This document shows positions 29,133 through 49,323 of a DNA stretch of 64,000 bases, in pieces. The position numbers and the translations under genes were made by a program. Every line of letters starts with the position of its first letter. Position 1 is the first letter of the stretch. The stretch is from a virus, in the IMG/VR virus record IMGVR_UViG_3300020477_000014, positions 1 to 64,000 of that record; one strand, 5' to 3'. The notes beneath the pieces were generated by a model. That model was not told the origin of the DNA and did not search any database. It saw nothing but the letters and a program-made list of their open reading frames with translations.

Positions 29133-29429
29133 ATGACTAATCCACTTTTGGCCGTTGCAACTCAGGACGGAGAATCTGAGTTAAAAAACTACATTATTGA
29201 ATATGTGGGCACCAAATTAGACAAGGAAGAGGTTACTGTTGAGATGATATCAGAAATTCTCGCTGTGGAGTTTCCTGACTTTTTATATGCATACGCCGAA
29301 GAGAATTTTATCCGAGGCTATGAACACGGCATCAATGACGGAACGAGAATGCTTCAATCGCACTCTGAAGACGATGACACTGATACTATCCCTATTCCTG
29401 GAACCGATGATGATGGCAGCACAGAGTGA
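29133..29429 (+). CDS. small acidic hypothetical protein
   Basis: 98 residues, AAGGAG-led and directly behind a strong promoter. It is helical and acidic (LKNYIIEYVGTKLDKEEVT, FLYAYAEENFIRGYEHGIND) with a disordered tail EDDDTDTIPIPGTDDDGSTE. Its 3' end overlaps the next gene. Unknown. Confidence 0.65.
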   Translation: MTNPLLAVATQDGESELKNYIIEYVGTKLDKEEVTVEMISEILAVEFPDFLYAYAEENFIRGYEHGINDGTRMLQSHSEDDDTDTIPIPGTDDDGSTE

Positions 29430-30889: not shown

Positions 30890-30908
30890 TTTTTATAAGG
30901 AAAAGAAA

Positions 30909-34458: not shown

Positions 34459-35316
34459 ATGTCTCAAGTTATATTTTTGTCCGATATGTTTGTGGAACAA
34501 TACGCCGGCGGAGCAGAGCTTACTAGTGAATCTATCATTAAGGCTGCTCCCGAAGGCATTATTATTAAGAAAATTCTTACTTCTACTTTGACGCAGAGGA
34601 TGATCGATCATCATAAAGAGTATTTGTGGGTAATTTGCAATTTTGCTGGCTTATCGGATGAGTTTAAAATATATTTTTGTAAGAATAAGATATCTTATAC
34701 TATTATTGAATATGATTATAAATTTTGTAAATATCGCTCCATGGAGAAACATGAGTATGCAGAGGGAAAAGCATGCGATTGTAATGAACTCCCGTTTGGT
34801 AAAATTAATAAAATATTTTATGGATATGCAAAACAGATTTGGTTTATGAGTGCCAAACAACAAAATATTTTTCACGATAAAGTACAGACTATTAAAGAAG
34901 AAAATACCAGCGTGTTGTCTTCTATTTTTGCCGATGGCGATTTGAGGTTTATTGACAACATTCGTCATAATGAAAAGAATTCTAAATATATTATTTTGCA
35001 ATCTCCTTCTTGGATCAAGGGAACAGGAGAGTGTGTAGAATATGCTAAATCTCATAATTTGGATTTTGATTTGGTCCATAATCTACCGTATCCCGAGTTG
35101 TTGATAAAACTCTCTCAATCCCGCGGACTTATATTTAGACCTTTAGGGGGAGACACATGCCCTCGAATTGTGATTGAGGCAAAGTTGCTGGGTTGCGAAT
35201 TGGTTTTAAATGGAAACGTGCAACACAAAGACGAAAAATGGTTCAATGCCAGCTATGAAGAGATGGTTGCCTATCTTAAAGGTCGTGCTAGTGTTTTTTG
35301 GAAGCATTATGAATAA
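34459..35316 (+). CDS. putative glycosyltransferase
   Basis: 285 residues. VIFLSDMFVEQYAGGAELTSESIIKA resembles the GT-B N-terminal GG(A/S)E loop, and SPSWIKGTGECVEYAKSHNLDF plus FRPLGGDTCPRIVIEAKLLGCELVLN resemble the donor half with a changed E-x7-E. A Cys-containing stretch (EGKACDCNELPFG) is unusual. It is shorter than its two neighbours, so part of the acceptor domain is reduced. It overlaps the next gene by eight bases. Confidence 0.65.
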   Translation: MSQVIFLSDMFVEQYAGGAELTSESIIKAAPEGIIIKKILTSTLTQRMIDHHKEYLWVICNFAGLSDEFKIYFCKNKISYTIIEYDYKFCKYRSMEKHEYAEGKACDCNELPFGKINKIFYGYAKQIWFMSAKQQNIFHDKVQTIKEENTSVLSSIFADGDLRFIDNIRHNEKNSKYIILQSPSWIKGTGECVEYAKSHNLDFDLVHNLPYPELLIKLSQSRGLIFRPLGGDTCPRIVIEAKLLGCELVLNGNVQHKDEKWFNASYEEMVAYLKGRASVFWKHYE

Positions 35317-35998
35317 GAAAACTATAATTTTAATGGGGAACGGTCCATCCCTGAAGGACGTAGACTTTTCGTTGTTAGATGGTTACGATACTTTTGGTCT
35401 CAATTCGGCATATCGCGCATATGAAAGAATGGACTGGTGGCCTACTTATCACGGCTGTTTTGATTATAGAGTTACAGATAATCATAGGAGCAAATTCGAG
35501 GACTTGATAACCAACAGTCCTATTAAGAAATGTTTCTATATTCGTGATTTTGGAACAAATGATGGGTTTCAATATGTAAACTTGCAACAATATGGTACAA
35601 CGCAAAAGTTCAATAATTCGCTAGCTGATTTTGATTCATTTCATGATAATGGAAATTCAGGCGCCAATGCTAGTTCAGCGGCTGTTTGCATGGGTTACAA
35701 TAGGATCATACTTTTGGGCGTAGATTGCAATTATGTAGAATTCGTCGACGGCTCCCAACGAGATGGTCCGGGGCTGAAAATGGAGAAAACGCCCGAACAT
35801 AATCCTAATTATTGGTTTGATGATTACCAGCAAAAGGGCGATGAATACAATATTCCTCGAGGGATGGATTTTCATATGCCTACCTGGAATGCGTTTGCTT
35901 ACAATGCTGCTCATAATAATATAGAAGTCATTAATTGCAGCCCCATTACCACCTTAAGGTGCTTTAAGAGAATGAACATAGAGGAAGCGCTAAGGTGA
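35309..35998 (+). CDS. NGPSLK-type transferase (DUF115/GT42-like)
   Basis: 229 residues from ATG 35309. The start KKTIILMGNGPSLKDVDFSLLDGYDTFGLN matches the nucleotide-binding loop of DUF115 proteins and of GT42 sialyltransferases (AGNGPSL). GNSGANASSAAVCMGYNRIILLGVDCNY is the second conserved block and HNPNYWFDDYQ the third. The same blocks form the C-terminal half of the protein at 38707, so the two are paralogues. It may transfer a CMP-activated sugar; a CMP-sugar synthetase lies at 41502. Confidence 0.7.
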   Translation: MNKKTIILMGNGPSLKDVDFSLLDGYDTFGLNSAYRAYERMDWWPTYHGCFDYRVTDNHRSKFEDLITNSPIKKCFYIRDFGTNDGFQYVNLQQYGTTQKFNNSLADFDSFHDNGNSGANASSAAVCMGYNRIILLGVDCNYVEFVDGSQRDGPGLKMEKTPEHNPNYWFDDYQQKGDEYNIPRGMDFHMPTWNAFAYNAAHNNIEVINCSPITTLRCFKRMNIEEALR

Positions 35999-36405: not shown

Positions 36406-36944
36406 TTAAAATAAATATGGGCTGTGGGTGGAGAAATTTTGGCAATGATTGGACCCATATCGATGCCGGCAACTATGATCATTTGAATTATAAAAGTATA
36501 ATAAACTTAAGTCAATTTCAAGACAATTCTGTTGGTTTAATTTACTCTTCTCATGTTATTGAATATTTTGATCGTACAGAAGTGATCCCTTTATTACAAG
36601 AGTGGAAAAGAATTTTGAACAAGGGTGGCACTCTAAGAATAGCAGTCCCTAATTTTGAAGCTATCGCTACTTTATATTCAAAAGGAAAAATTCCCCTTGA
36701 TAGAGTCTTGGGTCCACTTTACGGAAGAATGCAGATGTCTGATTGCACGATTTATCACAAAACAGTTTATGATTTCGTTTCTTTGAAAGAATTATTAGTG
36801 GAGCTTGGTTTTTCAAAAGTAAAAAAATATAATTGGCGGAAAACGGATCATGCCATATTTGACGATTATTCCCAAGCATATCTTCCCCACATGGATAAAG
36901 AAAATGGAACTTTAATAAGTTTAAATGTTGAGTGTGTTAAATGA
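36402..36944 (+). CDS. SAM-dependent methyltransferase
   Basis: 180 residues. KINMGCGWRNFGNDWTHIDAG is the SAM-binding motif I (G-C-G, then acidic D). IYSSHVIEYFDRTEVIPLLQEWKRILNKGGTLRIAVPNF is the typical post-motif helix and strand of class I methyltransferases acting on sugars or small molecules. It overlaps neighbours by four bases on both sides. Confidence 0.8.
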   Translation: MIKINMGCGWRNFGNDWTHIDAGNYDHLNYKSIINLSQFQDNSVGLIYSSHVIEYFDRTEVIPLLQEWKRILNKGGTLRIAVPNFEAIATLYSKGKIPLDRVLGPLYGRMQMSDCTIYHKTVYDFVSLKELLVELGFSKVKKYNWRKTDHAIFDDYSQAYLPHMDKENGTLISLNVECVK

Positions 36945-37534
36945 GTTTTGAGATAATTCAAAAATTTGAAAAAGAGATTGCTCGTTTTTATGGAGCCCCA
37001 TATGCTGTAGCTGTCGATTGTTGCACTCATGCAATCGAACTTTGCCTAAGACAGCAAAGCATAAAGCACTACACAGTTCCCAAAAGAACTTATATATCTG
37101 TTCCGTTTTTGGCTGATAAATTAGGCATAAACTTTGATTGGCGAAATGAGGAATGGCAAGATTATTATTACCTCGGAGGGACAAATATTATCGATGCTGC
37201 GGTTCTTTGGAGAGAGAATTCTTATATACCAAACACCTTTATGTGTGTTAGTTTTCAATATAGAAAACATTTATCTTTAGGAAGGGGAGGAATTATCTTG
37301 ACAGATAACAAAAAAGATGTTATATTATTAAAAAAGATGTCTTATGATGGTCGCTTGCCTGATGTTCCCTGGCGGGAACAGGACATTGACACAATGGGGT
37401 ATCACTATTACATGACACCGGAAACAGCAAATCTTGGTTTGCAAAAATTACCAAATGCCATAAAAACAAAACCAAAACAATGGATAGTGACAGATTGGCC
37501 AGATTTAACAAAAATGGAGATTTTTAAAAAATGA
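36941..37534 (+). CDS. short DegT/DnrJ-type PLP aminotransferase
   Basis: 197 residues, about half the usual 370. The N-terminal PLP domain is recognisable: PYAVAVDCCTHAIELCLR, YTVPKRTYISVPFLADKLG, and the Schiff-base region SFQYRKHLSLGRGGIILTD with K109 in place. The C-terminal small domain is mostly missing. It could still bind PLP and act as a sugar aminotransferase with a partner, or be a degraded copy. A full promoter lies inside its 3' part (37298). It overlaps both neighbours. Confidence 0.65.
   Translation: MSFEIIQKFEKEIARFYGAPYAVAVDCCTHAIELCLRQQSIKHYTVPKRTYISVPFLADKLGINFDWRNEEWQDYYYLGGTNIIDAAVLWRENSYIPNTFMCVSFQYRKHLSLGRGGIILTDNKKDVILLKKMSYDGRLPDVPWREQDIDTMGYHYYMTPETANLGLQKLPNAIKTKPKQWIVTDWPDLTKMEIFKK
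37298..37326 (+). promoter_or_regulatory. intragenic sigma70-type promoter
   Basis: TTGACA (37298-37303), 17-base spacer ending in TGT, TATATT (37321-37326), identical in form to the best intergenic promoters. It lies inside the short aminotransferase gene, 205 bases before the GDP-mannose dehydratase start, which it could drive separately. Confidence 0.55.
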
Positions 37535-38502
37535 AAAAAGCTTTAATTACCGGTATTGCCGGTCAAGACGGAAGCTATCTAACAGAACACTTGCTTTCCA
37601 TGGGATATGAAGTTCATGGTATAGTTCGACGGCATTCGGTGGCAGAGAATCAAAATTTTCGCTTACACCGATTAGGATCCGAACCTAATGTGTACACTTA
37701 TTATGGTGATTTGCTGGATTACCCTTCACTAGTTAGAATAATTTCGATAGTGAAGCCAGACGAGATTTATAATCTTGGTGCCATGAGTCACGTAAGGGTT
37801 AGTTTCGATATGCCTTCTTTTACAATTCAAACAAACGCCTTGGGTGTTTTAAACATGCTTGAAGTTTACAGAACTCTTTCCCCGGAAGCGAAATTCTATC
37901 AAGCTAGTTCTTCTGAGATGTTCGGAAACTCAGTTGATTCTGACGGTGTTCAGAGGCTTACTACTCCTATGAACCCAGTCAGCCCCTATGGGTGCGCTAA
38001 AGTTATGGGGTATAATTTAGTTAGACACTATCGACATGCTTACAAATTACATGCATGCAATGGAATTCTATTTAATCACGAATCCCCCCGACGAGGCTCT
38101 AACTTTGTGACCAATAAGGTTGTCAAAGGAGCCGTCTCTATCAAGAAGGGACTTCAAGACAAACTTGAGCTTGGCAATATGGACTCATCCCGGGATTGGG
38201 GTCATTCAAAAGATTATGTTAAGGCTATGCACATGATAATAAACCATGACACCCCCGAAGAATTTATTGTTGCAACCGGAGAAACACACTCAGTGAGAGA
38301 TTTGTGCGATGTGGTATTTTCTAAATTGGGAATGAACTATGCAGATTATATTGTTCAAAATCCGAAATATATGAGACCAGAAGAATTGAGATATCTAAAG
38401 GGAGACCCCTCGAAGGCTCATACAGTCTTGGGGTGGAAGCCAGAATATACTTTTGAAACAATGATAGAGGAAATGATCGAAAGATGGGAAAAAGAACTAT
38501 AA
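37531..38502 (+). CDS. gmd: GDP-mannose 4,6-dehydratase
   Basis: 323 residues, normal length. KALITGIAGQDGSYLTEHLLSMGYEVHGIVRRHS is the family's NADP-binding start (G-x-x-G-Q-D-G-S-Y). QASSSEMFGN, the catalytic Y-x-x-x-K in SPYGCAKVMGYN, LFNHESPRRG and SRDWGHSKDYV are all diagnostic. It turns GDP-mannose into GDP-4-keto-6-deoxymannose, the precursor of fucose, rhamnose, perosamine and related sugars. With phosphomannomutase at 24764 it gives the core of a 6-deoxyhexose route. Confidence 0.95.
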   Translation: MKKALITGIAGQDGSYLTEHLLSMGYEVHGIVRRHSVAENQNFRLHRLGSEPNVYTYYGDLLDYPSLVRIISIVKPDEIYNLGAMSHVRVSFDMPSFTIQTNALGVLNMLEVYRTLSPEAKFYQASSSEMFGNSVDSDGVQRLTTPMNPVSPYGCAKVMGYNLVRHYRHAYKLHACNGILFNHESPRRGSNFVTNKVVKGAVSIKKGLQDKLELGNMDSSRDWGHSKDYVKAMHMIINHDTPEEFIVATGETHSVRDLCDVVFSKLGMNYADYIVQNPKYMRPEELRYLKGDPSKAHTVLGWKPEYTFETMIEEMIERWEKEL

Positions 38503-38714
38503 AGAAATTCAACCGCGGCGACTTGGTGAAATGGTATGAGGTATACAATGATGTCTACATTACCAAAGATTATGGAACCGGAATCGTGATGGAGAGAATG
38601 GAACAAAATTACGGCTTCATCGATGGACCGGTTACTACCTACAGGGTATATAGATTAAAATATAGTGATATTGTTTTGTATGGGTCGGACTTAATAGAGG
38701 AAATAAATGAATAA
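38484..38714 (+). CDS. small SH3-like protein
   Basis: 76 residues: KKFNRGDLVKWYEVYNDVYITKDYGTGIVMERMEQN ... TYRVYRLKYSDIVLYGSDLIEEINE. A full GDLV/GIV/YRVYRL member of the small-barrel family, set inside the glycan operon with overlaps on both sides. This suggests that the family serves a general rather than a glycan-specific role. Confidence 0.65.
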   Translation: MGKRTIKKFNRGDLVKWYEVYNDVYITKDYGTGIVMERMEQNYGFIDGPVTTYRVYRLKYSDIVLYGSDLIEEINE

Positions 38715-40371
38715 AAGATTATGCGTGTTGCAGGTCACTCCTACCGAACCTAATAGGGATCATATCGAATTATTTCACAATAAAAAAGATTGTGATTTTT
38801 ATTTTGTAACACATGATAGCCAACATGCTGATGCATTAAAATTTTGTCCCAACACTACGTGGACAGATACAAGAAATATATTAGCTGAAATGGTTCCTAA
38901 AAAATATGATTATTATGCTTTTGTGGATTATGATTATCGTTTTCATCCCCAAGGCGATCTTGGGGTACTTGAGCAGATATTGTCTGATTTAGAACATTTC
39001 AATCCAGCAGTTTTGACTTGTTATCCGGGTTCTGGGCTTATAACTCCCTTTGCTTCCGATATGGATTATAAAAACAAACATACCCACTCTGTAATACCTT
39101 TTACGCATTGTGGAATGAAGGTGGTCCACCATAGCCTTATGAATTGGTTTTTCCCAATGGTTACGAAATTTGGTGGTGGAGTGGAAGCATGTCATCTTTT
39201 TAACATAATGGAGCTTCCTTTTTTGCAAAATATTGTTTGCACTCATCAAATTGTATATGATAATGGAGTTACTGACATGAATGCGCCACACAATCGCGAT
39301 GGTGCACAATCTAAATTGAACATGGACAAGATGTGGTCATGGTTGTATCCTTATTTTAACAAAAGAAAAACCCTAAGAGATAAAGAAGTAAAACTCAGGT
39401 GGGGCGACAGTATCCCAACACGTATCGAGGAATACACTTCATATACTAATTCACTAACAATTAAAGAGACGTACGTCGGCTTATTGACTGGAAAAGTGAT
39501 TCCCAGTCCGGCAGAAAAAGAGGTAGATTATTACAGTTTAAAATATAAAGATAAAATTAAGAAGTTTTTCGATATAAATCATGAACATTTTGCTCCCAAA
39601 TTTGGAAATCTAAAATCTAGAAATGATACAATTGTTATTGTAGGAAATGGACCTTCTTTAAAAGAGGAATATTTCGAGATTTTACGACGCGATGATATTG
39701 ATACTTTCGGATTGAACGTTGCATATCGTTTTTTTGAGAAGATGAATTGGTATCCTAAGTTTTATGGATGTTTTGATTACGCTGCCACGAACACCCACAG
39801 ATCCAGTATTGCCTCTTTTATACGAGATAAGGATTGTCCTATAGAAAAGTTTTTCTTATTGGAAAGACCTAGTATCGAGGCAAGACTAAGCAACACTAAG
39901 TTGTATTTCGATGAGGACGTCCGCGGCGATCGTAAATATGTAGAAAGACCCCATAATCAAGACGGAATCGGATGGCCCACGTGGGGCACCAGGAATAATA
40001 AGATATCTTGCACGGGCGCAAATGCAATTCGCACCGCAATGGAATTAGGATACAAAAAGATTATTTTAATTGGTCATGATGCCAGCTACACTCCTTCGAA
40101 AAAAATCGAGGGACATTCTCAAGTATCGTCGGACAGATATGAGGTGACGGAAAAATCTCAAAATCCTAATTATTTTTGGCAAGATTATTACGAGAAGGGA
40201 GATATTTATAATAAGCCGGGGGATGCATTACCTGCATGGAAAAATATGGCTGATTGTGTAAGCCAAACTTATCCACATGTGGATGTAGTTAATTGCTCGA
40301 AGAACTCTAGAGTAACTTTTTTTCGGTTTGGTGAGTTTTTTAAAGAGATTGGGGTAAAAAATGAAGACTAA
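38707..40371 (+). CDS. two-domain transferase: N-terminal GT-like plus NGPSLK-type domain
   Basis: 554 residues. Residues 1-225 form an unassigned GT-A-like domain: RLCVLQVTPTEPNRDH, YYAFVDYDYRFHP (a possible D-x-D-type metal site), and GVEACHLFNIMELPFL. Residues about 305-550 repeat the protein at 35309: IVIVGNGPSLKEEYFEILRRDDIDTFGLN, FYGCFDYAATNTHRSS, CTGANAIRTAMELGYKKIILIGHDASY, QNPNYFWQDYYEKGD and VVNCSKNSRVTFF. A bifunctional polymerising transferase is possible. ATG 38707 overlaps the previous gene. Confidence 0.75.
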   Translation: MNKRLCVLQVTPTEPNRDHIELFHNKKDCDFYFVTHDSQHADALKFCPNTTWTDTRNILAEMVPKKYDYYAFVDYDYRFHPQGDLGVLEQILSDLEHFNPAVLTCYPGSGLITPFASDMDYKNKHTHSVIPFTHCGMKVVHHSLMNWFFPMVTKFGGGVEACHLFNIMELPFLQNIVCTHQIVYDNGVTDMNAPHNRDGAQSKLNMDKMWSWLYPYFNKRKTLRDKEVKLRWGDSIPTRIEEYTSYTNSLTIKETYVGLLTGKVIPSPAEKEVDYYSLKYKDKIKKFFDINHEHFAPKFGNLKSRNDTIVIVGNGPSLKEEYFEILRRDDIDTFGLNVAYRFFEKMNWYPKFYGCFDYAATNTHRSSIASFIRDKDCPIEKFFLLERPSIEARLSNTKLYFDEDVRGDRKYVERPHNQDGIGWPTWGTRNNKISCTGANAIRTAMELGYKKIILIGHDASYTPSKKIEGHSQVSSDRYEVTEKSQNPNYFWQDYYEKGDIYNKPGDALPAWKNMADCVSQTYPHVDVVNCSKNSRVTFFRFGEFFKEIGVKNED

Positions 40372-40795
40372 AAACGATAGTGATCTAAAGAGAGTGCTGG
40401 AAAAGGACGGCGTTCATTGTTTGGAATTAAAGAAATATGAAAATTGTTCTACTATAAATTTAGCTGAATTGAGAGAAGATTTGGGCATGGGGTCTTGGGC
40501 AGTGAGAATTGCTTACAACGATCTTTTTGGTGGAGTAGTCATTCAGCAACAGCCCGGCGAGGGAAATCGAAAACACTTCCATCATGATGCAGACGAGAAT
40601 TGGGTAATTTTAGATGGAGAGTGGGAATGGTGGATTGATGGCATTGGAAAACGCCGAGTGAAACAACATGATATAATAGTAGTGCCCCGAGGCGTTTGGC
40701 ACCAAATAACGTGCATAGGAGATTCGCCAGGAGTACGGTATGCAATTACACGACCGGATGTAGACCATGTATACGAAGACAACAACGATAAATAA
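40361..40795 (+). CDS. cupin-fold protein
   Basis: 144 residues. QQQPGEGNRKHFHHDADENWVILDGEWEWWIDG is cupin motif 1 (H-x-H with Glu) and QHDIIVVPRGVWHQITCIGDSPGVRYAITRP is motif 2 (P-x-G-x-x-H). Complete metal site, single domain. Probably a sugar-modifying enzyme or binding protein of the locus. It overlaps the gene before by 11 bases and the SDR after by up to 29. Confidence 0.78.
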   Translation: MKTKNDSDLKRVLEKDGVHCLELKKYENCSTINLAELREDLGMGSWAVRIAYNDLFGGVVIQQQPGEGNRKHFHHDADENWVILDGEWEWWIDGIGKRRVKQHDIIVVPRGVWHQITCIGDSPGVRYAITRPDVDHVYEDNNDK

Positions 40796-41501
40796 TATTA
40801 CTTTTAATTATTCTAACAAGATTGTGGTAGTAGTAGGGGGATCCCGTGGCATTGGCAAGGAAATCTGCAAGCAATTTGTTTTGGCTGGCGCTACGGTCTA
40901 TTGTTTATCACGAACGCCGCTTAATACAAAAGGAGTGACACACATTGTGTGTGATATATCTATCGAGAAAGATATTGACAAAGCTATCGCACAATTGGAG
41001 TCTATTGATTTTTTGATTAATGTAGCCGGCACCAACTTATGTGAGCCGATTGAAAATATAACAACCACAGAATGGGACCGGCTGATGAACACGAATTTGA
41101 AATCGTTTTTTTTGATTTCTAAAAAGGTGATTCCTTTGATGAAGGAGAAGAATTCCGGTCGCATTGTTAATGTCTCTTCTATTGCCGGCAGACATAAGAG
41201 CGTGGTTAGCGGCGTACATTATACATCTAGCAAATATGGTATTGTGGGATTAACTAAGCAGTTGGCACATGAGGTATCTCGATATAATATTTTGGTAAAC
41301 TGCGTGTGCCCAAGCCAAACAAGAACTGAAATGTTGGAAGCTTCCATGACTGAGGAACAGTTGCATAATTTAGAAAAACAAATTCCTGTACGTCGAATTG
41401 CTACCACTGTTGAGCAATCGTTACCTGTGTTGTTTCTTTGTTCTGATGGTGCTTCTTACATTAGTGGCGCTACAATCGATATTAACGGGGGTCAATTCTA
41501 A
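40767..41501 (+). CDS. short-chain dehydrogenase/reductase (SDR)
   Basis: 244 residues, classical SDR: VVVVGGSRGIGKEICKQF (TGxxxGxG type), LINVAGTN (NNAG variant), VNVSSIAGRHKSV with Ser, then YTSSKYGIVGLTKQLAHE (Y-x-x-x-K), and SGATIDINGGQF. It reduces a keto group or oxidises an alcohol with NAD(P)H, in this locus most likely on a sugar or acyl group. The first 15 residues overlap the cupin gene, so the start may be later. Confidence 0.9.
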   Translation: MYTKTTTINNITFNYSNKIVVVVGGSRGIGKEICKQFVLAGATVYCLSRTPLNTKGVTHIVCDISIEKDIDKAIAQLESIDFLINVAGTNLCEPIENITTTEWDRLMNTNLKSFFLISKKVIPLMKEKNSGRIVNVSSIAGRHKSVVSGVHYTSSKYGIVGLTKQLAHEVSRYNILVNCVCPSQTRTEMLEASMTEEQLHNLEKQIPVRRIATTVEQSLPVLFLCSDGASYISGATIDINGGQF

Positions 41502-42179
41502 ATGCATAGGGATATAGATATAAACGTTTTGATTGCTGTTAGAGGCGGTTCTAAGCGCATTCCTGGAAAGAATACGAGACCTTTCGGGGGAGCCTCGATG
41601 CTTGAATTGAAAATTCAACAAGCTCTTCGATTAAAAGAAGTATCTGCGGTGGTGGTGACGTCAGAAGATGACTCCATGTTGCAGATAGCAGAAGATCTGG
41701 GAGCAGTTGCTATGAAGAGGGATTCTTATTATGCTAGCGATACGGTTCCAATGGGAGAAGTATATGTTCATCTTGCGTCATCTCTTAGTTGTAAGGATGT
41801 TTTGTGGACGCCGGTCACAAGTCCATTGGTGACCGATAAAACCATACAAGAGTGTATAACTTTTTATAAAACCAGGCCAGAGTTTGATTCTGTAGTAACC
41901 ACCAATCTGGTCAAGGAATATATGTGGTTGGGCGATAAAGCCATCAACTATGATCCACTGAATCATCCCAGATCCCAGGATTTGCCGGATGTTTATGCTT
42001 TGAATTTCGCAGCCAACATTCTTTCCCGCGAGATGATGATCAAAAACAGGAACATTATAGGAGATAAATTTTATCCTTATATGATAGACGATGTTGAATC
42101 TGTGGACGTGGATACTGAATTTGATTTTGTGATAGCAGAGTTTTTATATAATAACAGAGGAAAAGATTGTGACATATAA
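41502..42179 (+). CDS. CMP-sugar synthetase (acylneuraminate cytidylyltransferase type)
   Basis: 225 residues. NVLIAVRGGSKRIPGKNTRPFGGASMLELKIQQAL is the CTP-binding signature (R-x-G-S-K-x-(I/L)-P-x-K-N); VVVTSEDDSMLQIAEDLGA and RDSYYASDTVP continue it, and DVESVDVDTEFDFVIAE is the metal-binding end. It activates a 2-keto acid sugar such as a sialic, legionaminic or Kdo-like acid as CMP-sugar. No NeuB-type synthase is seen; the aldolase at 46864 is one possible alternative source of a keto-acid. Confidence 0.9.
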   Translation: MHRDIDINVLIAVRGGSKRIPGKNTRPFGGASMLELKIQQALRLKEVSAVVVTSEDDSMLQIAEDLGAVAMKRDSYYASDTVPMGEVYVHLASSLSCKDVLWTPVTSPLVTDKTIQECITFYKTRPEFDSVVTTNLVKEYMWLGDKAINYDPLNHPRSQDLPDVYALNFAANILSREMMIKNRNIIGDKFYPYMIDDVESVDVDTEFDFVIAEFLYNNRGKDCDI

Positions 42180-42843
42180 GATAGAGGTACCCCCAATGTG
42201 CGAACCGGAAATCTTGCCAAAAGTAATACCATATTTTAAAAACCGATCTAAATTTGTGGATGTTGGGGCATCTGATGGCTGGTATACATATGTTGCCGCC
42301 AAGGAAATGCCATCAGGTTCGACAATAATTGGTTTCGAACCGGTACCATGGATTTTTGACAAATACAAGAATCATTATGTTGCATCTTGGGCGCCAGAGG
42401 ATTGGTTTAAAAACAAAACAATACACTGTTATAACCAAGTGGTTTCGGATCAATCCGGAATAGATACAAAGTTTTATAAAACAAAAAACCATTCAGGAGT
42501 TATGGATCCTCTTTTATTACTAAAAAAACCAGAAGCTTTTGAGGAAAGTTGGGATATTCCAACGACTAAGTTGGATGATTTTTTGGATCCTTCTGAAAAG
42601 GGAGTATTAATAAAAATTGACGTGGAAGGCGGTGAAGATAAGGTTATCAAGGGCGGTAACTATTATTTTTCCAATTGTGTAGAGTGTTATGTGTTTTTAG
42701 AATTGCACAATTCTTATCTCTTAAATAAAGGAGTGCCGCCACAAACCGTTGTGAAATATTTCACAGATCGAGGTTATGAAAAAATTAAATTAGGTGGCCA
42801 CGGGCGAATCGAATGGTATATTTTTAGGAAAGAAATCAAATGA
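42169..42843 (+). CDS. FkbM-family methyltransferase
   Basis: 224 residues, GTG start overlapping the previous stop. KFVDVGASDGWYTYVAAKEMPSGSTIIGFEPVPW is SAM motif I of the FkbM type (FEP after the acidic strand). TTKLDDFLDPSEKGVLIKIDVEGGEDKVIKGG is the diagnostic D-V-E-G-x-E block. FkbM enzymes O-methylate sugars and polyketides. It fits late decoration of the glycan. Confidence 0.9.
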   Translation: MTYKIEVPPMCEPEILPKVIPYFKNRSKFVDVGASDGWYTYVAAKEMPSGSTIIGFEPVPWIFDKYKNHYVASWAPEDWFKNKTIHCYNQVVSDQSGIDTKFYKTKNHSGVMDPLLLLKKPEAFEESWDIPTTKLDDFLDPSEKGVLIKIDVEGGEDKVIKGGNYYFSNCVECYVFLELHNSYLLNKGVPPQTVVKYFTDRGYEKIKLGGHGRIEWYIFRKEIK

Positions 42844-43778
42844 GAAATATCAAGATCTTTATTGTTACATATAAGAGGGGAGATGTCCTAAATAATACTT
42901 TGCAAAAGTTATTCAAAGAAACCGATTTCTCCTTAATACCGAATACCGAAGTTAATATTATTAATAATCATTCAGATTTTTGGATTGATGATGAATTTCG
43001 GGACCAAGTGAATGTTATACACAATTCTACGCGCCCCGATTGGGATGTTGGTAATCTCGCACGTAATTGGAACGAAGCACTTTTGCACGGCTTTAAAGAT
43101 TTAAAAAACCCAGACTCTAAGGTGGTGGTAACGATGCAGAACGACATTGTTTTGCACCCCAATTGGGCCACCAATTTGCTTAAAATGCATAAAAAATATA
43201 ATTTCATAACTGGTTGCGCAGGTGATAATATTATTAGTTATACGGCGGAGGCAGTGAAGAAGATCGGATTATGGGACGAAAGGTTTTGTTCCATATCTCA
43301 CAAAGAAGCCGATTATTATATTAGAGCGCTTATTTATAACAAAGAATATTCCATTATAAATGATCAGTTTCATAAGCGTTATCTAAATGCAGACGCATGG
43401 CTTCCTTTGGATACTGGTGATTACTTAGGCAATGAAAAAGAATGGATGAAGATAAAAGCCACCAACTTGTCTACAGAAGCAATGAACCATAGCACTCAGA
43501 TATTTTACTGGAAATGGAAAAACACATGGAAGACTCAACCTTCTTATAATGGATGGTTCGTTAATTGGTCGTCGGATTTTATAACCGATCCGCCATCTCC
43601 CCCGACCGTTCCGAATTTCATAAAATATTATTATTTTGAAAAAGATCTTGACAATTTGCAAAAAAAGAATTATATTGGTTGGAGAAGTGGCGATCTTTGG
43701 TTGAGATCTACGGGGAACCTGGACATTGATGAACTTCCACCTCCCAGAGAATCAACTACAGGAGAAATTTCGAAATGA
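42840..43778 (+). CDS. glycosyltransferase, GT2-like (GT-A fold)
   Basis: 312 residues. KIFIVTYKRGDVLNNTLQKLF is the GT2 start, VNIINNHSDFW the next strand, NLARNWNEALLHGF the conserved helix, and VVTMQNDIVLHPNW holds an N-D-I in the D-x-D metal position. ETD-like HKEADYYIRALIYN follows. The C-terminal 100 residues are Trp/Tyr-rich and specific to this protein. Overlaps of four bases on both sides. Confidence 0.82.
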   Translation: MRNIKIFIVTYKRGDVLNNTLQKLFKETDFSLIPNTEVNIINNHSDFWIDDEFRDQVNVIHNSTRPDWDVGNLARNWNEALLHGFKDLKNPDSKVVVTMQNDIVLHPNWATNLLKMHKKYNFITGCAGDNIISYTAEAVKKIGLWDERFCSISHKEADYYIRALIYNKEYSIINDQFHKRYLNADAWLPLDTGDYLGNEKEWMKIKATNLSTEAMNHSTQIFYWKWKNTWKTQPSYNGWFVNWSSDFITDPPSPPTVPNFIKYYYFEKDLDNLQKKNYIGWRSGDLWLRSTGNLDIDELPPPRESTTGEISK

Positions 43779-44470
43779 TAACTACTAAAAATTTACAAAT
43801 AATAGACACTGCGCAAACTCTTTATGATGCTTTTAACGATTTTATTTTGAGCGACGATACCAAAGTGTTCGGAAAATTACTCGCAAGAGCCATTTTGCTC
43901 GATCGAGTAAAAGATGTTCCTGGTGATATAATAGAGTGTGGTGTTTTTAAAGGGACCGGTGTTGTTTCTTTTCTAAAAATAAAAAAATATTTATGCCCCA
44001 ATTCTCATAAAAAAGTTATTGGTTTTGATTTTTTTGATACTGACGGATTGTTAAAAAGCCTATCAAACCAAGACCAAGAGGCTATGAGTGCATTATTCAA
44101 AGATAGAGGATTCGAACATGAGCAGGGATTTGTTTCTTATTTAAAGCAGTCAATTGAATCCTTTGGGTTTCAAGAGCACGAATTTGAACTTGTACAAGGA
44201 GATATTTCAAAAACTATAAAAGAATATATATCCGATAAGCCTGGATTGAAAATTTCTCTTTTATATATTGATTTAGATATTGAAAAGCCAACTTATGATG
44301 TTTTGTGCGCCACTTGGGATAGAATGTCGAAGGGGGGCATGATAGTGTTTGATGAATATGCATATCATTGCTGGTCGGAGTCGATTGGTGTGGATAGGTT
44401 TTTCAAAGATAAGAATGTAGTAGTGAGGTCTCTAAATTTCATGGGACCCACAGCATATGTAATAAAATAA
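43775..44470 (+). CDS. TylF/macrocin-type O-methyltransferase
   Basis: 231 residues. RAILLDRVKDVPGDIIECGVFKGTGVVSFLKI is the TylF SAM-binding block (E-C-G-V-x-x-G). VIGFDFFDTDG, LKISLLYIDLDIEKPTYDVLCATWDRMSKGGMIVFDEYAYHCW gives the metal-binding D-x-D and D-E-Y. Family members methylate sugar hydroxyls. Third methyltransferase of the locus. Confidence 0.87.
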   Translation: MITTKNLQIIDTAQTLYDAFNDFILSDDTKVFGKLLARAILLDRVKDVPGDIIECGVFKGTGVVSFLKIKKYLCPNSHKKVIGFDFFDTDGLLKSLSNQDQEAMSALFKDRGFEHEQGFVSYLKQSIESFGFQEHEFELVQGDISKTIKEYISDKPGLKISLLYIDLDIEKPTYDVLCATWDRMSKGGMIVFDEYAYHCWSESIGVDRFFKDKNVVVRSLNFMGPTAYVIK

Positions 44471-44483
44471 AAAGAGAACAAAC

Positions 44484-45215
44484 ATGAATATATTGATACC
44501 AATGGCTGGCGAAGGCAGTCGATTTAAAAAAGAAGGCTTTAAAAAACCAAAACCACTAATAGACGTTAACGGAAAACCTATGATTAAGTGGGTTGTGGAT
44601 AATGTCGGAATTGACGGAAAATATATTTTTATCGTACAAAAGGCACATACAATAAAGTACCCATATTTAGTTGATGAGCTTACAACTATGGCAAAGGACG
44701 TAGAGGTGTTGACGGTAGATGGATTAACAGAAGGCGCCGCATGTACAGCATTGATAGCCAAACACTTGATAGACAATGACGAGCCATTACTAATTTGCAA
44801 TTCAGATCAGTGGGTGGATTGGGTCCCAGAACATTTTTTAAAATTTATAAAGAGAAAAGATTGTGATGGGGCATTATTAACTTTTTTCTCTGATAGTCCA
44901 AAGCATTCTTATTCTCGATACAATTATAATACCAGAGTGGTAACAGAAGTTGCCGAAAAACAAGTTATAAGCAATTTTGCCACTGTGGGAATATATTATT
45001 GGAGAAAGGGTAGCGAATTCGTGGAATGTGTTAATAAAATGATAGACAAGAATCTAAGAGTTAATAATGAATTTTATTTATGCCCAGCCTATAATGAGTT
45101 GATTTTCCACAAAGACGGGAAGGTGGAATTGTATCCTATTTGTGAGATGAGGGGAATGGGTACTCCTATGGAATTAGAAAGGTTTTTACTCTTATTAGAG
45201 AAAGAAGGCGTTTAA
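44484..45215 (+). CDS. sugar-1-phosphate nucleotidyltransferase
   Basis: 243 residues. MNILIPMAGEGSRFKKEGFKK then PKPLIDVNGKPMIKWVVDN is the G-x-G-x-R-F...K-P-K binding start of the RmlA/GalU-like family. LICNSDQWVDW replaces the usual L-x-G-D metal site. Unlike RmlA it is short and lacks a C-terminal beta-helix. It charges a sugar-1-P with NTP; mannose-1-P to GDP-mannose is one candidate since no other guanylyltransferase is seen. It overlaps the RuBisCO-like gene by one base. Confidence 0.85.
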   Translation: MNILIPMAGEGSRFKKEGFKKPKPLIDVNGKPMIKWVVDNVGIDGKYIFIVQKAHTIKYPYLVDELTTMAKDVEVLTVDGLTEGAACTALIAKHLIDNDEPLLICNSDQWVDWVPEHFLKFIKRKDCDGALLTFFSDSPKHSYSRYNYNTRVVTEVAEKQVISNFATVGIYYWRKGSEFVECVNKMIDKNLRVNNEFYLCPAYNELIFHKDGKVELYPICEMRGMGTPMELERFLLLLEKEGV

Positions 45216-46399
45216 TGAAGTTTTTTCGTCAAAGTGTAGAAAAAGAGAAATACATCATAGTGGAGTATTTTTTAAAAAGCAAGACCACATTGAGAGATGC
45301 TGCATGGTCTTTGGCAATAGGTCAAAGTGTAGGAAACCCCAATGTCAGAAATCATTGGGAAACCGATGAGCTTTTTGAGAACCATTCTTGTTTGATTATG
45401 GGTGATGAAGAGAAGTTAAAACAAATAAGCGAAGGTAAAGTTAAAATAGCCTTTCCAATAGCAAATACAGACTTTAAGACAGATGGAGTGTCTCATTTGC
45501 TTTGTCAATTTATGGGCGGACAAATGGATATAGATATTGTTCAAAAATGCCACATGTTGAATGTAGTACTACCTCAGCATGTTGAAGATAAATATTTTTT
45601 AGGACCAAAATACGGCATTGAAGGTATCAGAGATTTTACTAATAGTCACGATAAGCCTCTTTTTGGAGGGATTGTTAAGCCCAAGATTGGCGTTACAAGT
45701 AGCGTGTTGCTTGAAATGGTACGAGAGATGGTAGAGGGGGGCATCAATTTCATCAAAGAAGATGAGATCATGTCAAACCCTGCTTGTTGCCCAATAGAAG
45801 AAAGAGTACCTTTAATTATGGATTATCTCAAAGGCAAGGATGTGATTTATGCTGTTTGTATTAATTGTGATCCGCTGCATGTTATTGATAGAGTTAAAAG
45901 AGTTCATGAATTAGGAGCCAACGCTGTCCATATCAATTTTTGGAGCGGACTTGGAGTTTATAAATCAATTAGAGAATTGGATTTGCCAATGTTTATTCAC
46001 TTTCAAAAAAGTGGCGACAAAGTATTAACAAACAAGAATCATGATTATCATATTTCTTGGGACGTTGTGTGTGATCTGGCAGGTCTTATGGGTGTGGATT
46101 TTATACACGCTGGAATGTGGGGTGGCTACATGTCAGATAATGAACAGGAATTAAAGAACACTTTATCTGTTTTGCACAACAGGAGTGTAATGCCGGCTCT
46201 AAGTTGCGGAATGCATGCAGGTCTAATTCAAGCAATAAACAAAAGATTTGGAACAAATTATATGGCTAATGTCGGCGGCGCTATACATGGACACCCTAAC
46301 GGCTCTAAAAGTGGCACCATGGCGATAAGACAGAGTGTAGATGGCGAACATGGACAAGAATATGAAATTGCGATAAAAAAATGGGGGATCGTAAAGTGA
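45215..46399 (+). CDS. RuBisCO-like protein (form IV type)
   Basis: 394 residues, the RuBisCO large-subunit fold. FGGIVKPKIGVTSSVLLEMVREMVEGGINFIKEDE gives the K-P-K loop (K155, K157) and the carbamylatable Lys with metal ligands (K181, D183, E184). NPACCPIEERV, FIHF (H262), VDFIHAGMWGG (H298 region), ALSCGMHAG and NVGGAIHGHPNGSKSGTMA follow in family order. The Arg after H262 and the loop-6 Lys needed for carboxylation are absent, so it should not fix CO2. Known RuBisCO-like proteins do enolase, isomerase or decarboxylase/transcarboxylase chemistry on sugar-phosphate-like substrates. It starts one base inside the nucleotidyltransferase gene. Confidence 0.88.
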   Translation: MKFFRQSVEKEKYIIVEYFLKSKTTLRDAAWSLAIGQSVGNPNVRNHWETDELFENHSCLIMGDEEKLKQISEGKVKIAFPIANTDFKTDGVSHLLCQFMGGQMDIDIVQKCHMLNVVLPQHVEDKYFLGPKYGIEGIRDFTNSHDKPLFGGIVKPKIGVTSSVLLEMVREMVEGGINFIKEDEIMSNPACCPIEERVPLIMDYLKGKDVIYAVCINCDPLHVIDRVKRVHELGANAVHINFWSGLGVYKSIRELDLPMFIHFQKSGDKVLTNKNHDYHISWDVVCDLAGLMGVDFIHAGMWGGYMSDNEQELKNTLSVLHNRSVMPALSCGMHAGLIQAINKRFGTNYMANVGGAIHGHPNGSKSGTMAIRQSVDGEHGQEYEIAIKKWGIVK

Positions 46400-46429
46400 C
46401 TGACATTTTTTGGAGAACCATTAGTGAAA

Positions 46430-46867
46430 ATGATTGCACATAGAGGAAATCTCAGAGGGCCGAACCCGGACCAAGAGAATAAACCAGAGTATATAGAGGC
46501 GGCATTGGCGGAACACTACGATGTGGAAGTGGACGTATGGCGATCTGAAAACAAGTGGTATCTAGGTCACGACGAACCACAATATGAGATAGATTCAGAA
46601 TTTCTCGTAAATGAGAGAATATGGTGTCATGCAAAGAATTTACATGCATTTCAAGATTTGTTGGTATTAGATGCGCATTGTTTTTGGCACCAAAAGGATG
46701 ATTATACCTTGACAAGTAGTAATTTTATTTGGGCGTATCCTGGCCAACCATTGTCGCCGATGTCCATTTGTGTAATGCCTGAATTAACAGCTTATACCAC
46801 AACAGATGTCTTAAGGTGTGCCGGGATCTGTTCCGATTGGATAGAGAAATTTGGGGAAATTTTATGA
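46430..46867 (+). CDS. GDPD-like (glycerophosphodiester phosphodiesterase fold) protein
   Basis: 145 residues (GTG 46424 possible). MIAHRGNLRGPNPDQENKPEYIEAAL has the family H-R-G and E-N metal start; YDVEVDVWRSENKWYLGHDEPQYEI gives E-x-D and the second catalytic His. The rest (NERIWCHAKNLHAFQDLL, FWHQKDDYTL) is a shortened TIM barrel; full GDPDs have about 240-300 residues. It would cleave or bind a phosphodiester, perhaps a glycerol-P linked glycan. It overlaps the aldolase by four bases. Confidence 0.75.
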   Translation: MIAHRGNLRGPNPDQENKPEYIEAALAEHYDVEVDVWRSENKWYLGHDEPQYEIDSEFLVNERIWCHAKNLHAFQDLLVLDAHCFWHQKDDYTLTSSNFIWAYPGQPLSPMSICVMPELTAYTTTDVLRCAGICSDWIEKFGEIL

Positions 46868-47544
46868 TATTGGCTTGGCAGCAAATTCCTTCTCCAATGG
46901 TTTCAGAGATCTTGTGTTGTAATTCTGCTGGCATAGTGTTGGATTTGGAACATGGGTGTTTTAATAATGAGACTCTTTACACTTGTATTCAAATTATTAA
47001 ATCTAAAAATAAAAAATGCATAGTTAGGCTGACAGAAGTTTCCAAAACAATAATTCGCTATTGTTTGGATGCCGGCGCTGATGGATTAATTTTTTCTACA
47101 ATTGAAACAACAGAACAATGTGAAAAAATAATGGAATATAGCTACTATGCTCCCAAGGGCAAGCGAGGCTTGGGGTTGGTCCGCCAAAATCTATGGGGTG
47201 AGAAAAACCTTTTGTCACCAGATCCTATTATTATACCCCAAATCGAAACAAAGGATGCTGTGGATAATTTGGAAAACATCTTAAAATTTAATTTCGATTA
47301 TTATTTAATAGGCCCTTATGATCTGTCTTTAAGTTTAAAAATCCCGGGAAAATTTGACAATCCTCAATTTATATGTTATATTAATAAAGTGAATGAATTG
47401 ATAGAAAGGTCCAGGCTGGCAGTTCATATTCCCAATGACGTTCCTAATCAAATTAGCAAATATAGGGATTATGGAATAAAATGCCTGGGCATGGACACGA
47501 TAGGGCTATTAGAATATATGAAGGAGAACAACAAGCATGCTTAA
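46864..47544 (+). CDS. HpcH/HpaI-family aldolase
   Basis: 226 residues from ATG 46864 (GGGGAAA upstream). SAGIVLDLEHGCFNNETLYTCIQI holds the catalytic His and acidic residue; KKCIVRLTEV the Arg strand; LDAGADGLIFSTIETTEQCEKIM the phosphate/metal region; RGLGLVRQN; PIIIPQIETKDAVDNLENIL the Q-x-E-T metal site; and YYLIGPYDLSLSL the G-x-x-D-L-(S/A). These enzymes join or split pyruvate (or similar) and an aldehyde, giving 2-keto-3-deoxy acids. The RuBisCO-like and SIS-HAD neighbours suggest one pathway. A promoter lies in the 3' part. Confidence 0.87.
   Translation: MILAWQQIPSPMVSEILCCNSAGIVLDLEHGCFNNETLYTCIQIIKSKNKKCIVRLTEVSKTIIRYCLDAGADGLIFSTIETTEQCEKIMEYSYYAPKGKRGLGLVRQNLWGEKNLLSPDPIIIPQIETKDAVDNLENILKFNFDYYLIGPYDLSLSLKIPGKFDNPQFICYINKVNELIERSRLAVHIPNDVPNQISKYRDYGIKCLGMDTIGLLEYMKENNKHA
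47354..47382 (+). promoter_or_regulatory. intragenic sigma70-type promoter
   Basis: TTGACA (47354-47359), 17-base spacer ending in TGT, TATATT (47377-47382). Inside the aldolase gene, 155 bases before the SIS-HAD start. Same consensus as the promoters at 17917, 29085 and 37298. Confidence 0.55.
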
Positions 47545-48514
47545 TTTCGAAAATTTAGGAGAAAGATTTGTTCAAGTAGTTAACGGATCGGATTGGCTAG
47601 AATTACAAGAAAAATTTAACAAATGTGATGACATATACGTGTTGGGTCATGGAGGAAATTTAGCCGTGGCTGATCATGCTGCTGTAGATATTACTCGCTT
47701 ATCTAACGGACAAAAGAATGCTATTTGCCCCAGTAGTGGTGTTGTAGCCACCTCTTTTATCAATGACACCAATTTTGAGCAGTGGATGGTAAATTGGTTA
47801 TCTTGTCGTACCAATACGAGAACTGAAGCACAAATGAAGAAATCGTTAGTACTGGGAATATCGTCTTCTGGCGCCTCTATCGATGTTTTAAAAGCACTAC
47901 AGTGGGCGAATGACAACGGGATGGAAATAGGGATGATTAGCTCCAAGGATCTTACTTATGATATTTCTAATTTGACTAAAGTTATATTGGGCGCCGAATA
48001 TTACCACACCGCAGAGGTTCTAACACTTCTTTTAACCTACCAACTAACTCATGGATCAGGGAAAGAGTGCCCCCCTATAGGACAAAATACTCCTGATGCA
48101 TTGCGCGCACTAAACTGGAAAGGGGGTCACATCCGGGAACACAGCTATCCGGATGAAAAAATTAATTTAGGAATCGATTTTGATAAAGTGATTCATGGTT
48201 GTTCGCGAGGATATTATGATGGCACTATTTATGATCCCCCTATTCATGGAGCCGCCGAGGCACTTGAAAAATTATCTCAAAGTTATACTTTAATTATTTA
48301 TACCTGTAAAGCCAAGCCAGATCGTGGACTTGTGAATGGAAAAACAGGAACAGCTTTAGTTTGGGAATGGCTAGAAAAAAATAATCTTTCTCAATTTGTA
48401 AGTAAAGTTACAGCAGAAAAGCCACGAGCAGTGTGCTATATTGACGACAAGGCTGTACGATTTATCGATTGGGAATCTTGCATGAAAGAGTTGGAGGAAA
48501 TAGGCATTCTATGA
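47537..48514 (+). CDS. SIS isomerase - HAD fusion protein
   Basis: 325 residues. Residues 1-190 form a SIS domain like GmhA: YVLGHGGNLAVADHAAVDITRLS, SGVVATSFINDTNFEQW, SLVLGISSSGASIDVLKALQWA, ILGAEYYHTAEVLTLLLTYQ. Residues about 210-325 form a reduced HAD unit: INLGIDFDKVIHG (one Asp changed), YTLIIYTCKAKPD, KPRAVCYIDDKAVRFIDW. GmhA isomerises sedoheptulose-7-P and GmhB is a HAD phosphatase, so the fusion may link isomerisation and dephosphorylation of a ketose phosphate. It overlaps the neighbours by 8 and 4 bases. Confidence 0.8.
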   Translation: MLNFENLGERFVQVVNGSDWLELQEKFNKCDDIYVLGHGGNLAVADHAAVDITRLSNGQKNAICPSSGVVATSFINDTNFEQWMVNWLSCRTNTRTEAQMKKSLVLGISSSGASIDVLKALQWANDNGMEIGMISSKDLTYDISNLTKVILGAEYYHTAEVLTLLLTYQLTHGSGKECPPIGQNTPDALRALNWKGGHIREHSYPDEKINLGIDFDKVIHGCSRGYYDGTIYDPPIHGAAEALEKLSQSYTLIIYTCKAKPDRGLVNGKTGTALVWEWLEKNNLSQFVSKVTAEKPRAVCYIDDKAVRFIDWESCMKELEEIGIL

Positions 48515-49323
48515 TCTTGATAACAGGACATAAAGGCTATATCGGAAGTCATCTCTATAAGGCTTTAAAATCATTTGACATGGAAGTGTATGGGATTGAT
48601 TTAAAAGACGGTCACGATATCGCTTATTGTTTGCCTGATCGAGATTTCGATTATGTATTCCATCTAGCAGCACTACCACAAGTCGAATATTGCAACAAGC
48701 ACCCTAGTTATGCACTTAAGCAAAATGTGGGTGCAACTTCGATACTTCTCGAGTGGGCTTATGGACACAATGTCAAGAAGGTCATTTTTTCATCTTCAGC
48801 AGCAGTGTATGGCGATGGAGGTGGTCCTAAATCTCCTTATGGTTTACATAAGTTGATGGCAGAAATGGAGTGTAAACTATATTCAGATTTTTATAATATA
48901 GATACGGTTTGTTTGCGATATTTTAATGTATATTCAGAAGATCAACCGTACGGCGGCTCTTATTCTACGGTTATTGCAGCTTGGATGGAGATGATGAGGA
49001 ATGGTCATCCTTTGCGTTTGGATGGCACAGGCAAACAAACGAGAGACTTTGTTCATGTAGAAGATATAGTGGCTGCTAATATATTTTGCATGAAGAGTAA
49101 ATTAAAATTTAATGGAGAGTGTTATGATGTGGGCTCTGGTCAGTCGACTGCGCTTAACACTATAAAATATTATATCGATCATCGATATTCTAATGTGAGT
49201 TGGTTATGGACCCCTGAAAGAGAGGGAGACATCTTTAATTCGGTTGCTGACATATCTAAGTTGGCAGAAATAGGATGGACACCACAAATTGACATAAAGA
49301 CTGGCTTATCTAGATGTTTTTAG
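48511..49323 (+). CDS. NAD-dependent sugar epimerase/dehydratase
   Basis: 270 residues from ATG 48511 (GGAGG at 48493). MILITGHKGYIGSHLYKALKS is the extended-SDR NAD loop; FHLAALPQVEYCNKHPSYAL, IFSSSAAVYGDGG, SPYGLHKLMAEMEC (Y-x-x-x-K), CLRYFNVYSEDQPYGG and TRDFVHVEDIVAANI complete a GalE/WcaG-like enzyme. Slightly short. It epimerises or dehydrates an NDP-sugar. Last gene of the glycan locus. Confidence 0.9.
   Translation: MILITGHKGYIGSHLYKALKSFDMEVYGIDLKDGHDIAYCLPDRDFDYVFHLAALPQVEYCNKHPSYALKQNVGATSILLEWAYGHNVKKVIFSSSAAVYGDGGGPKSPYGLHKLMAEMECKLYSDFYNIDTVCLRYFNVYSEDQPYGGSYSTVIAAWMEMMRNGHPLRLDGTGKQTRDFVHVEDIVAANIFCMKSKLKFNGECYDVGSGQSTALNTIKYYIDHRYSNVSWLWTPEREGDIFNSVADISKLAEIGWTPQIDIKTGLSRCF

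Follow-up and report, generated by a model that had tools for sequence, protein, structure and literature searches.

A RuBisCO-like protein in a two-cassette glycan island of a phage and its proposed role as a sugar-phosphate isomerase

What do six tightly packed genes for sugar enzymes make in a phage, and what is the task of the RuBisCO-like protein (RLP) among them? The genes lie in the window analysed here, the first 64 kb (64,000 nucleotides) of the 189,712-base virus record IMGVR_UViG_3300020477_000014. They encode a nucleotidyltransferase (NT), the RLP, a miniature GDPD-like protein, an HpcH/HpaI aldolase (HpcH), a SIS-HAD fusion protein and an epimerase. The record is that of a phage, as indicated by its tmRNA, PhoH-like protein and baseplate wedge proteins. 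An earlier note on this DNA had proposed a single pathway to an unusual sugar or keto-acid. The island is instead two cassettes side by side and not one conserved six-gene pathway. The RLP is proposed, from comparison of loci, to be a sugar-phosphate isomerase feeding the NT.

One pathway or two cassettes

The six open reading frames (ORFs) are all on the + strand at the positions given in the earlier note, and are as tightly packed as it described. NT and RLP overlap by one base (TAATG), RLP and GDPD are separated by a 24-base gap, and the remaining junctions are overlaps of 4, 8 and 4 bases. The enzyme classes, originally named by eye, hold. The window proteins match PF00483, PF00016, PF03328 and PF01370 above the Pfam cut-offs, and the class of the GDPD-like protein is upheld by its fold. 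Neither this protein nor the full-length SIS-HAD protein has a Pfam match at E 0.001; the SIS half searched alone gives a sub-threshold match to PF01380. The best PDB profile match of the NT is 4evw, a protein of unknown function (5e-34). The setting is, as the note had it, sugar biosynthesis in a phage: the glycan island around the six genes contains glycosyltransferases, a GDP-mannose 4,6-dehydratase, a glutamine-synthetase-like gene and methyltransferases.

When IMG/VR was scanned with the RLP, 172 relatives were found; the analysis used the 80 best (55-82% identity). A profile scan of GTDB genomes added 24 further relatives, and none were found in 50,697 phage records. Neighbouring genes were counted by profile HMMs, and again after grouping at 95% identity. 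The 80 viral RLP loci contain an NT in 78 cases, a short GDPD in 68, a 107-aa cupin (C3) in 53 and HpcH in none; the corresponding counts for the 57 groups are 56, 48, 42 and 0. The nearest NT, GDPD and C3 genes share the strand of the RLP in 198/199 cases, and C3 is directly upstream of it in 41/80 viral loci. This NT-RLP-GDPD set, often with the small cupin, is conserved in viral and some bacterial loci and is referred to as cassette A.

HpcH and SIS-HAD belong to a second set, cassette B (module B). HpcH is present in 27/33 loci seeded with SIS-HAD. The cupin, short-chain dehydrogenase (SDR) and cytidylyltransferase genes at 40361-42179, outside the stretch considered in the earlier note, accompany HpcH-SIS-HAD in several loci, and the epimerase follows SIS-HAD in many. 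Several HpcH/SIS-HAD loci approximate the gene order of the window, namely cupin-SDR-CMP-transferase-glycosyltransferase-NT-TylF-GDPD-HpcH-SIS-HAD-epimerase. One of them, L131, is 76-80% identical to the window for the cupin, CMP-transferase and SIS-HAD proteins.

The relatives of RLP, HpcH, SIS-HAD and GDPD recur in similar surroundings in many other viral contigs, so the grouping of the genes is more than chance. The neighbourhood search, which the note itself had named beforehand as a refuting test, gave a divided answer. Each half is conserved elsewhere, but RLP and HpcH are found together nowhere outside the window. No PF03328 match occurs in any of the 50 RLP records searched over their full length (those of 50 of the 80 loci), and RLP is absent from all 57 loci seeded with HpcH (24) or SIS-HAD (33), two sets that partly overlap in contigs. 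With no co-occurrence in either search direction, the six genes as one conserved unit were rejected, and the single-pathway claim is not supported.

The boundary between the cassettes can be seen in the relatives of the island. Among 25 loci with HpcH, SIS-HAD, NT and GDPD (near-identical contigs included), 17 have the NT joined to a HAD domain, five have a separate HAD, in three no HAD was detected, and none carries RLP. In L131, L134 and L157 the other five genes are kept, with HAD-NT in the place where the window has NT-RLP. The window NT clusters with NTs of RLP loci (L003, L001 and L018; SH-aLRT 93 for the four rows), and the module-B genes are up to 83% identical to those of RLP-free phages. 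NT-RLP thus reads as a pair that was probably inserted into an island of the module-B kind.

The RuBisCO-like protein, its partners and its rivals

The RLP scores 120 bits against PF00016 (cut-off 30), and is under every NCBIfam cut-off. Its matches to OiaX (3.5e-35), mtnW (1.6e-36) and PRK09549 (1.7e-46) include 125.8 and 158.6 bits against the MtnW models TIGR03332 and NF007095 (cut-offs 513.6 and 409) and 121.6 bits against the OiaX model NF042437 (cut-off 700). In a tree of 68 rows, a single clade (100/99) unites the 51 family members and excludes the RuBisCO, MtnW, MtnW-like and OiaX-like references, with the placement of the long rows L097, L103 and L181 uncertain; the two MtnW references are over the NCBIfam cut-offs. 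The clade contains a crown group of 38 rows, mostly viral (100/100). The remaining members of the clade are from Legionella, Azospirillum, Elusimicrobia, Verrucomicrobia, Nanoarchaeia, Pacearchaeota and SAR11. The protein is rare in the bacteria sampled, being present in 2/297 genomes of a SAR11 order and 4/22 of a Legionella genus. The clade may be the ‘IV-GOS’ group of ocean sampling sequences named in the accessible part of PMC10173188. The SAR11 loci (L087-L092) have NT-family genes on both sides of the RLP in 6/6 cases; the upstream copies form a very long branch in the NT tree and possibly differ in function.

The AF2 model of the RLP has a pLDDT of 91.4, and its VIA Z score is 41.4 to both RuBisCO 2cwx and MtnW 2oem. 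The residues K334, E60, N123 and H294 (RuBisCO numbering) are needed for carboxylation by RuBisCO. A residue census covered 103 sequences (80 viral, 22 bacterial and the window), leaving out the truncated L100 and L104, which has 24% identity. The metal ligands K201, D203 and E204 of RuBisCO forms I-III, together with K175, K177 and S379, are kept in 103/103. The replacements E60G, T65N, N123G, H294Q, K334Y and G380C are likewise found in 103/103, so that Y, G, G and Q stand at the four carboxylation positions K334, E60, N123 and H294. The fold and the loss of these residues are those of a type IV RuBisCO-like protein. The conserved residues suggest an active site that could enolise a metal-bound phosphorylated substrate but lacks the lysine used for carboxylation. 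This fits the ‘enolisation’ named in the earlier note, whose other option, ‘decarboxylation’, is also conceivable. The protein is most likely unable to fix carbon dioxide.

The gene that takes the place of the RLP in related phages points to its possible function. Homologues of the NT are present in 19 records of cultured phages (18 named Synechococcus), and those of GDPD in 16 records of cultured Synechococcus phages. In phage Bellamy, gp206 is an NT joined to an RpiB/LacAB isomerase domain (PF02502 3.9e-32; TIGR00689 105.4 bits, cut-off 88.3), and the gene right after it, gp207, is C3 (E 1.1e-38). Searching with gp206 yielded 30 viral loci, or 33 with L275-L277, falling into 14 clusters at 95% identity. 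The NT-RpiB fusion is present in 31 of the 33, GDPD in 29 and RLP in none. C3 is the next gene in 27; two other loci end near a contig edge, and in the two Bellamy copies a longer antisense ORF was chosen. In L107 the genes for NT-RpiB, C3, GDPD and HpcH are consecutive. Conversely, PF02502 was found in 0/50 records (49 RLP records and that of the window).

In the loci searched, NT, C3 and GDPD accompany RLP or RpiB, and the two were not seen together. On the simplest reading, they would be isomerases that can stand in for each other in supplying one kind of NT. This comparison, headed ‘DISPLACEMENT BY RpiB’, is put forward as displacement and not homology. C3 itself has a best Pfam cupin score of 24.9 bits against a cut-off of 27 (Cupin_7), and its H50, H52 and E57 are invariant in 29 sequences. 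The stand-alone NT goes with RLP: HAD-NT fusions occur in 3/80 RLP loci as against 45/67 loci seeded with GDPD, and are also present in the cultured phages S-CAM9 and DSL-LC03. In L007 and L218 a small C-terminal HAD-type domain on the NT was read by eye.

The third member of cassette A is a barrel of unusually small size. GDPD enzymes carry the catalytic letters HR, ExD and H on a TIM-type barrel. In 44 sequences of the miniature protein H6 R7, E35-x-D37, H49 and K71 are invariant, and the AF2 model (pLDDT 97.5) is such a barrel. It aligns with GDPD 1o1z over 140 residues (VIA Z 10.6, rmsd 3.3). The top 31 VIA rows are mostly of GDPD type (a multidomain glucanase occupies rows 2 and 3), phospholipases D score about Z 7-8 and unrelated barrels 6.6 or less. 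Foldseek gave no E under 0.001 and Pfam no family at E 0.05; the profile match to GDPD 7e0v (1.6e-4) covers the first third only. On the model, the protein looks like a GDPD barrel in which several of the connecting helices have been cut back. Its 147 residues align over 140 with GDPDs of 218-250 residues, and it would be a natural minimal TIM-type barrel.

In cassette B, HpcH scores 55.6 bits against PF03328 (cut-off 25), and its closest relative in the PDB is YfaU, a 2-keto-3-deoxy sugar acid aldolase (3e-18). Its catalytic H, R, E and D letters align with those of YfaU, in agreement with a class II HpcH/HpaI aldolase. The SIS half is weakly similar to phosphoheptose isomerases (TIGR00441 gmhA 1.4e-6, below cut-off; 1tk9 E 0.0043), and the C-terminal part of SIS-HAD matches phrog_1238 (4.9e-13). 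The note's statement that no standard route is present is borne out for the record of the window, which has no match to NeuB (PF03102) or the KdsA family (PF00793). Among 38 records, NeuB is present in three and the KdsA family in one. In L005 and L162, both without HpcH, NeuB lies at most about 4 kb from the CMP-transferase and SIS-HAD genes. The product of cassette B is probably an aldolase-made, CMP-activated ulosonate, formed by a route without NeuB or KdsA.

A joint explanation, held at roughly even odds (about 0.5), is that two cassettes have been spliced in one glycan island, with the RLP as a Mg-dependent isomerase in A and a CMP-ulosonate route in B. Cassette A would yield an activated small sugar or polyol phosphate. 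K155 of the RLP (RuBisCO K175) would take a proton next to the carbonyl of a mono-phosphorylated ketose, and the enediolate would be held on the metal at carbamylated K181 with D183/E184. Protonation elsewhere would give the isomer, which the NT would couple to a nucleotide. The RLP, as an enolase/isomerase without CO2 fixation, would thereby do the job of the fused RpiB domain in related phages, and the mini-GDPD may act on a phosphodiester of the product. In cassette B, SIS would supply a sugar phosphate, to which HpcH would add pyruvate instead of the phosphoenolpyruvate-dependent synthases NeuB and KdsA. HAD would remove the phosphate and the CMP-transferase would activate the ulosonate.

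Several observations weigh against this explanation. In the GDPD-seeded loci the NT is most often joined to a HAD domain rather than to an isomerase, so that RLP and RpiB as equivalents are not the sole reading and the NT tolerates several partners. HAD is a possible equivalent of RLP, although the RpiB fusions fit the chemistry better. The distribution of fused NTs and of NTs with RLP tracks the NT tree, switching rarely (3 changes; 1 independent pair on starred branches) and is therefore not a repeated-event test of displacement; the independent-pairs test on this tree had one pair, too few to decide. The RpiB loci amount to 14 clusters from one cyanophage query, to which they are 80-100% identical. 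C3 was not found in the window, in a search without a positive control, and was not seen in 27/80 viral RLP loci. At the P2-phosphate site (positions R295/H298/H327) the 80 viral RLPs have K/D/H in 37, S/A/Q in 34 and K/D/Q in nine. The 34 that differ suggest that RLP substrates may differ, and none of the 45 largest neighbour clusters was associated with these subtypes at p<0.001. As for cassette B, L148, L153 and L161 have SIS-HAD with neither HpcH nor NeuB, and L159 carries both.

The same fold and metal ligands, and the NCBIfam matches given above, would also suit an OiaX-like enzyme of the decarboxylase/transcarboxylase type or an MtnW-like enolase of the DK-MTP-1-P type, whose product would be activated by the NT with no RpiB stand-in. 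This is doubtful, as the RLP clade is separate and well supported, K177 is kept (V in the MtnW references), and the OiaX-like reference retains H294 and K334, which are Q and Y here. The 25 Pfam families most frequent in 125 neighbours of viral RLPs (drawn from 377 by removing similar proteins and shortening the list) include no methionine-salvage or apiose-type family.

Cassette A might alternatively give a CDP-activated polyol or choline-like phosphate that is moved onto the glycan by a LicD-type transferase, with a LicC-like NT and GDPD trimming a phosphodiester. This would be compatible with an isomerase RLP. A Legionella LicD gene is divergent beside RLP-NT (PF04991 6.3e-44 in L099, 1e-42 in L102), which suggests transfer of a phospho-X group, and GDPD enzymes act on phosphodiesters. 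The LicD gene, however, is on the opposite strand, and LicD is outside the 25 commonest families of the same survey. The proposal is doubtful.

The tight overlapping packing, and the presence of the kinds of step that de novo sugar assembly requires, would favour one new pathway of six genes to a single product. The mutual absence of HpcH and RLP, and the three island relatives with HAD-NT in place of NT-RLP, render it improbable. The reading of the RLP as a true viral RuBisCO that helps the host to fix CO2 has next to no likelihood: the PF00016 score and the carboxylase activity reported elsewhere for a viral rbcL (PMC12615777, seen in part) are outweighed by the replacement of all four carboxylation residues throughout the census and by the glycan gene neighbourhood.

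The wider form of the isomerase reading is tentative, at somewhat less than even odds. A widespread, mainly viral RuBisCO-fold clade may have turned to sugar-phosphate isomerisation, replacing RpiB in a phage cassette of isomerase, NT, cupin and miniature GDPD whose product would be an as yet undescribed activated phospho-sugar destined for surface glycans. In that case some viral ‘rbcL’ genes would have been mistaken for carbon-fixation genes, and HpcH would replace NeuB/KdsA in a CMP-ulosonate route. The clade, for which no assigned function was found, is thereby given a precise role that is open to testing, and the RpiB-fused version in a cultured cyanophage serves as its natural control. 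As PF00016 passes the window RLP at four times the cut-off score, automatic annotation can call such proteins RuBisCO, and this clade may be among the viral carbon-fixation genes inferred in print. If the reading is true, sugar-nucleotide biosynthesis gains a RuBisCO-fold isomerase, and the case would show how phages exchange unrelated enzymes with the same function within their glycan islands.

Features of the island

The two proteins with MptE-like domains (Table 1) are possible users of the CMP-sugar. Of the other genes, the glutamine-synthetase-like ligase may serve amidation of a sugar or attachment of an amine to it. The ORF with the weak PF07737 match probably has a metallopeptidase-like fold. 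The DegT-type ORF is short relative to its family model and is possibly split or decayed.

Table 1. Positions of the features discussed, in window coordinates
Feature	Coordinates	Strand	Details
tmRNA gene	18710-19047		tag ANNNNHYDEVRLAA
ORF, weak match	29287-30057		PF07737, below cut-off
Glutamine-synthetase-like ligase	30783-31904		inside glycan island; PF00120 1.9e-21, PF03951 5.8e-13
MptE-like domain protein, weak alpha-2,3-sialyltransferase (CST-I) match	35210..35998	+	PF01973 1.7e-7, PF06002 0.0012, both below cut-off
DegT-type aminotransferase match	36941-37534		197-aa ORF; family model 360 residues
GDP-mannose 4,6-dehydratase	37531-38502		in glycan island
Protein with C-terminal MptE-like domain	38707..40371	+	PF01973 1.1e-8, just over cut-off
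Cupin, cassette B upstream part	40361..40795	+	PF07883 1.2e-11; 79-83% identical in L131, L134, L137, L139, L157
SDR, cassette B upstream part	40767..41501	+	PF00106 2.6e-47; same order in L131, L134, L137, L139, L153, L157, L161
CMP-sugar (acylneuraminate/KDO type) cytidylyltransferase, cassette B upstream part	41502..42179	+	PF02348 5.4e-14; best NCBIfam PseF 9.2e-24, below cut-off
Family 2-type glycosyltransferase common to module-B loci	42840..43778	+	PF00535 1.3e-4, sub-threshold; 42-70% identical
TylF-type methyltransferase common to module-B loci	43775..44470	+	PF05711 2.1e-11; 59-68% identical
NT, sugar-phosphate nucleotidyltransferase, cassette A	44484..45215	+	243 aa; PF00483 1.1e-7, over cut-off; phrog_3980 2.8e-64
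RLP of separate clade, cassette A	45215..46399	+	394 aa; PF00016 1.4e-34
Miniature GDPD-like barrel	46424..46867	+	147 aa; GTG start; with cassette A, also in module-B loci
HpcH/HpaI class II pyruvate aldolase, cassette B	46864..47544	+	226 aa; PF03328 6e-15
SIS (phosphoheptose-isomerase-like) fused to small HAD phosphatase-type domain, cassette B	47537..48514	+	325 aa
NAD-dependent nucleotide-sugar epimerase/dehydratase	48511..49323	+	270 aa; PF01370 1.8e-45

Comparison with known systems

Viral rbcL genes have been reported elsewhere. In the accessible parts of the sources, a landfill virus RbcL groups with ‘RbcL-like’ proteins (PMC12607003), and a soil viral rbcL1 of 25-36% identity to microbial genes is reported to be active (PMC12615777). 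The portion of a Lac Pavin paper that was available (PMC9875498) holds nothing relevant to viral RLPs. Searches for RLP with phage capsular polysaccharide, O-antigen, viral genomes/auxiliary metabolic genes or polysaccharide biosynthesis/SAR11 returned nothing in a literature that left most subscription journals outside. Within that same scope the isomerase proposal, which is specific, was not found.

The type IV RLPs of the MtnW type (DK-MTP-1-P enolase; PDB 2oem, 2oek and 2zvi) share with the window RLP the fold (VIA Z 40.8-41.4), K175, K201, D203, E204, S379 and the loss of E60. The window protein differs in keeping K177, in K334Y, H294Q and T65N, in its separate clade and in its scores under the NCBIfam cut-offs. 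An RLP of Rhodospirillum/Rhodopseudomonas is described, in the part of PMC5893883 available, as a 1,3-isomerase (5-methylthioribulose-1-P) with a cupin partner. By that description, this DeepYkr RLP resembles the proposed cassette A in combining an RLP with a cupin and in isomerising a phosphorylated ketose, whereas cassette A sits in glycan synthesis with an NT and a GDPD.

The KDO and nonulosonate routes proceed through KdsD-KdsA-KdsC-KdsB and NeuB-NeuA, respectively. Cassette B has the same classes of isomerase, phosphatase and CMP-transferase, but the 190-kb record contains no NeuB or DAHP-synthase-family enzyme, for which the HpcH aldolase may stand in.

Among cultured phages, S-CAM9 and DSL-LC03 have NTs 47-48% and GDPDs 46% identical to those of cassette A. 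They differ in the HAD fused to the NT, and neither RLP nor C3 was found in the stretches examined. In Bellamy (L276, 6106-9248), an Aldolase_II protein, a small HAD and an HddA-like heptose kinase adjoin GDPD; these genes are another sugar route in a cultured cyanophage. The Bellamy cassette itself (gp206 NT-RpiB, gp207 C3 and gp213 GDPD) is similar to cassette A in its NT (40% identical), GDPD (34% identical) and C3 (by the match given above). Other genes lie between C3 and GDPD in Bellamy, and an RpiB domain is present instead of the RLP.

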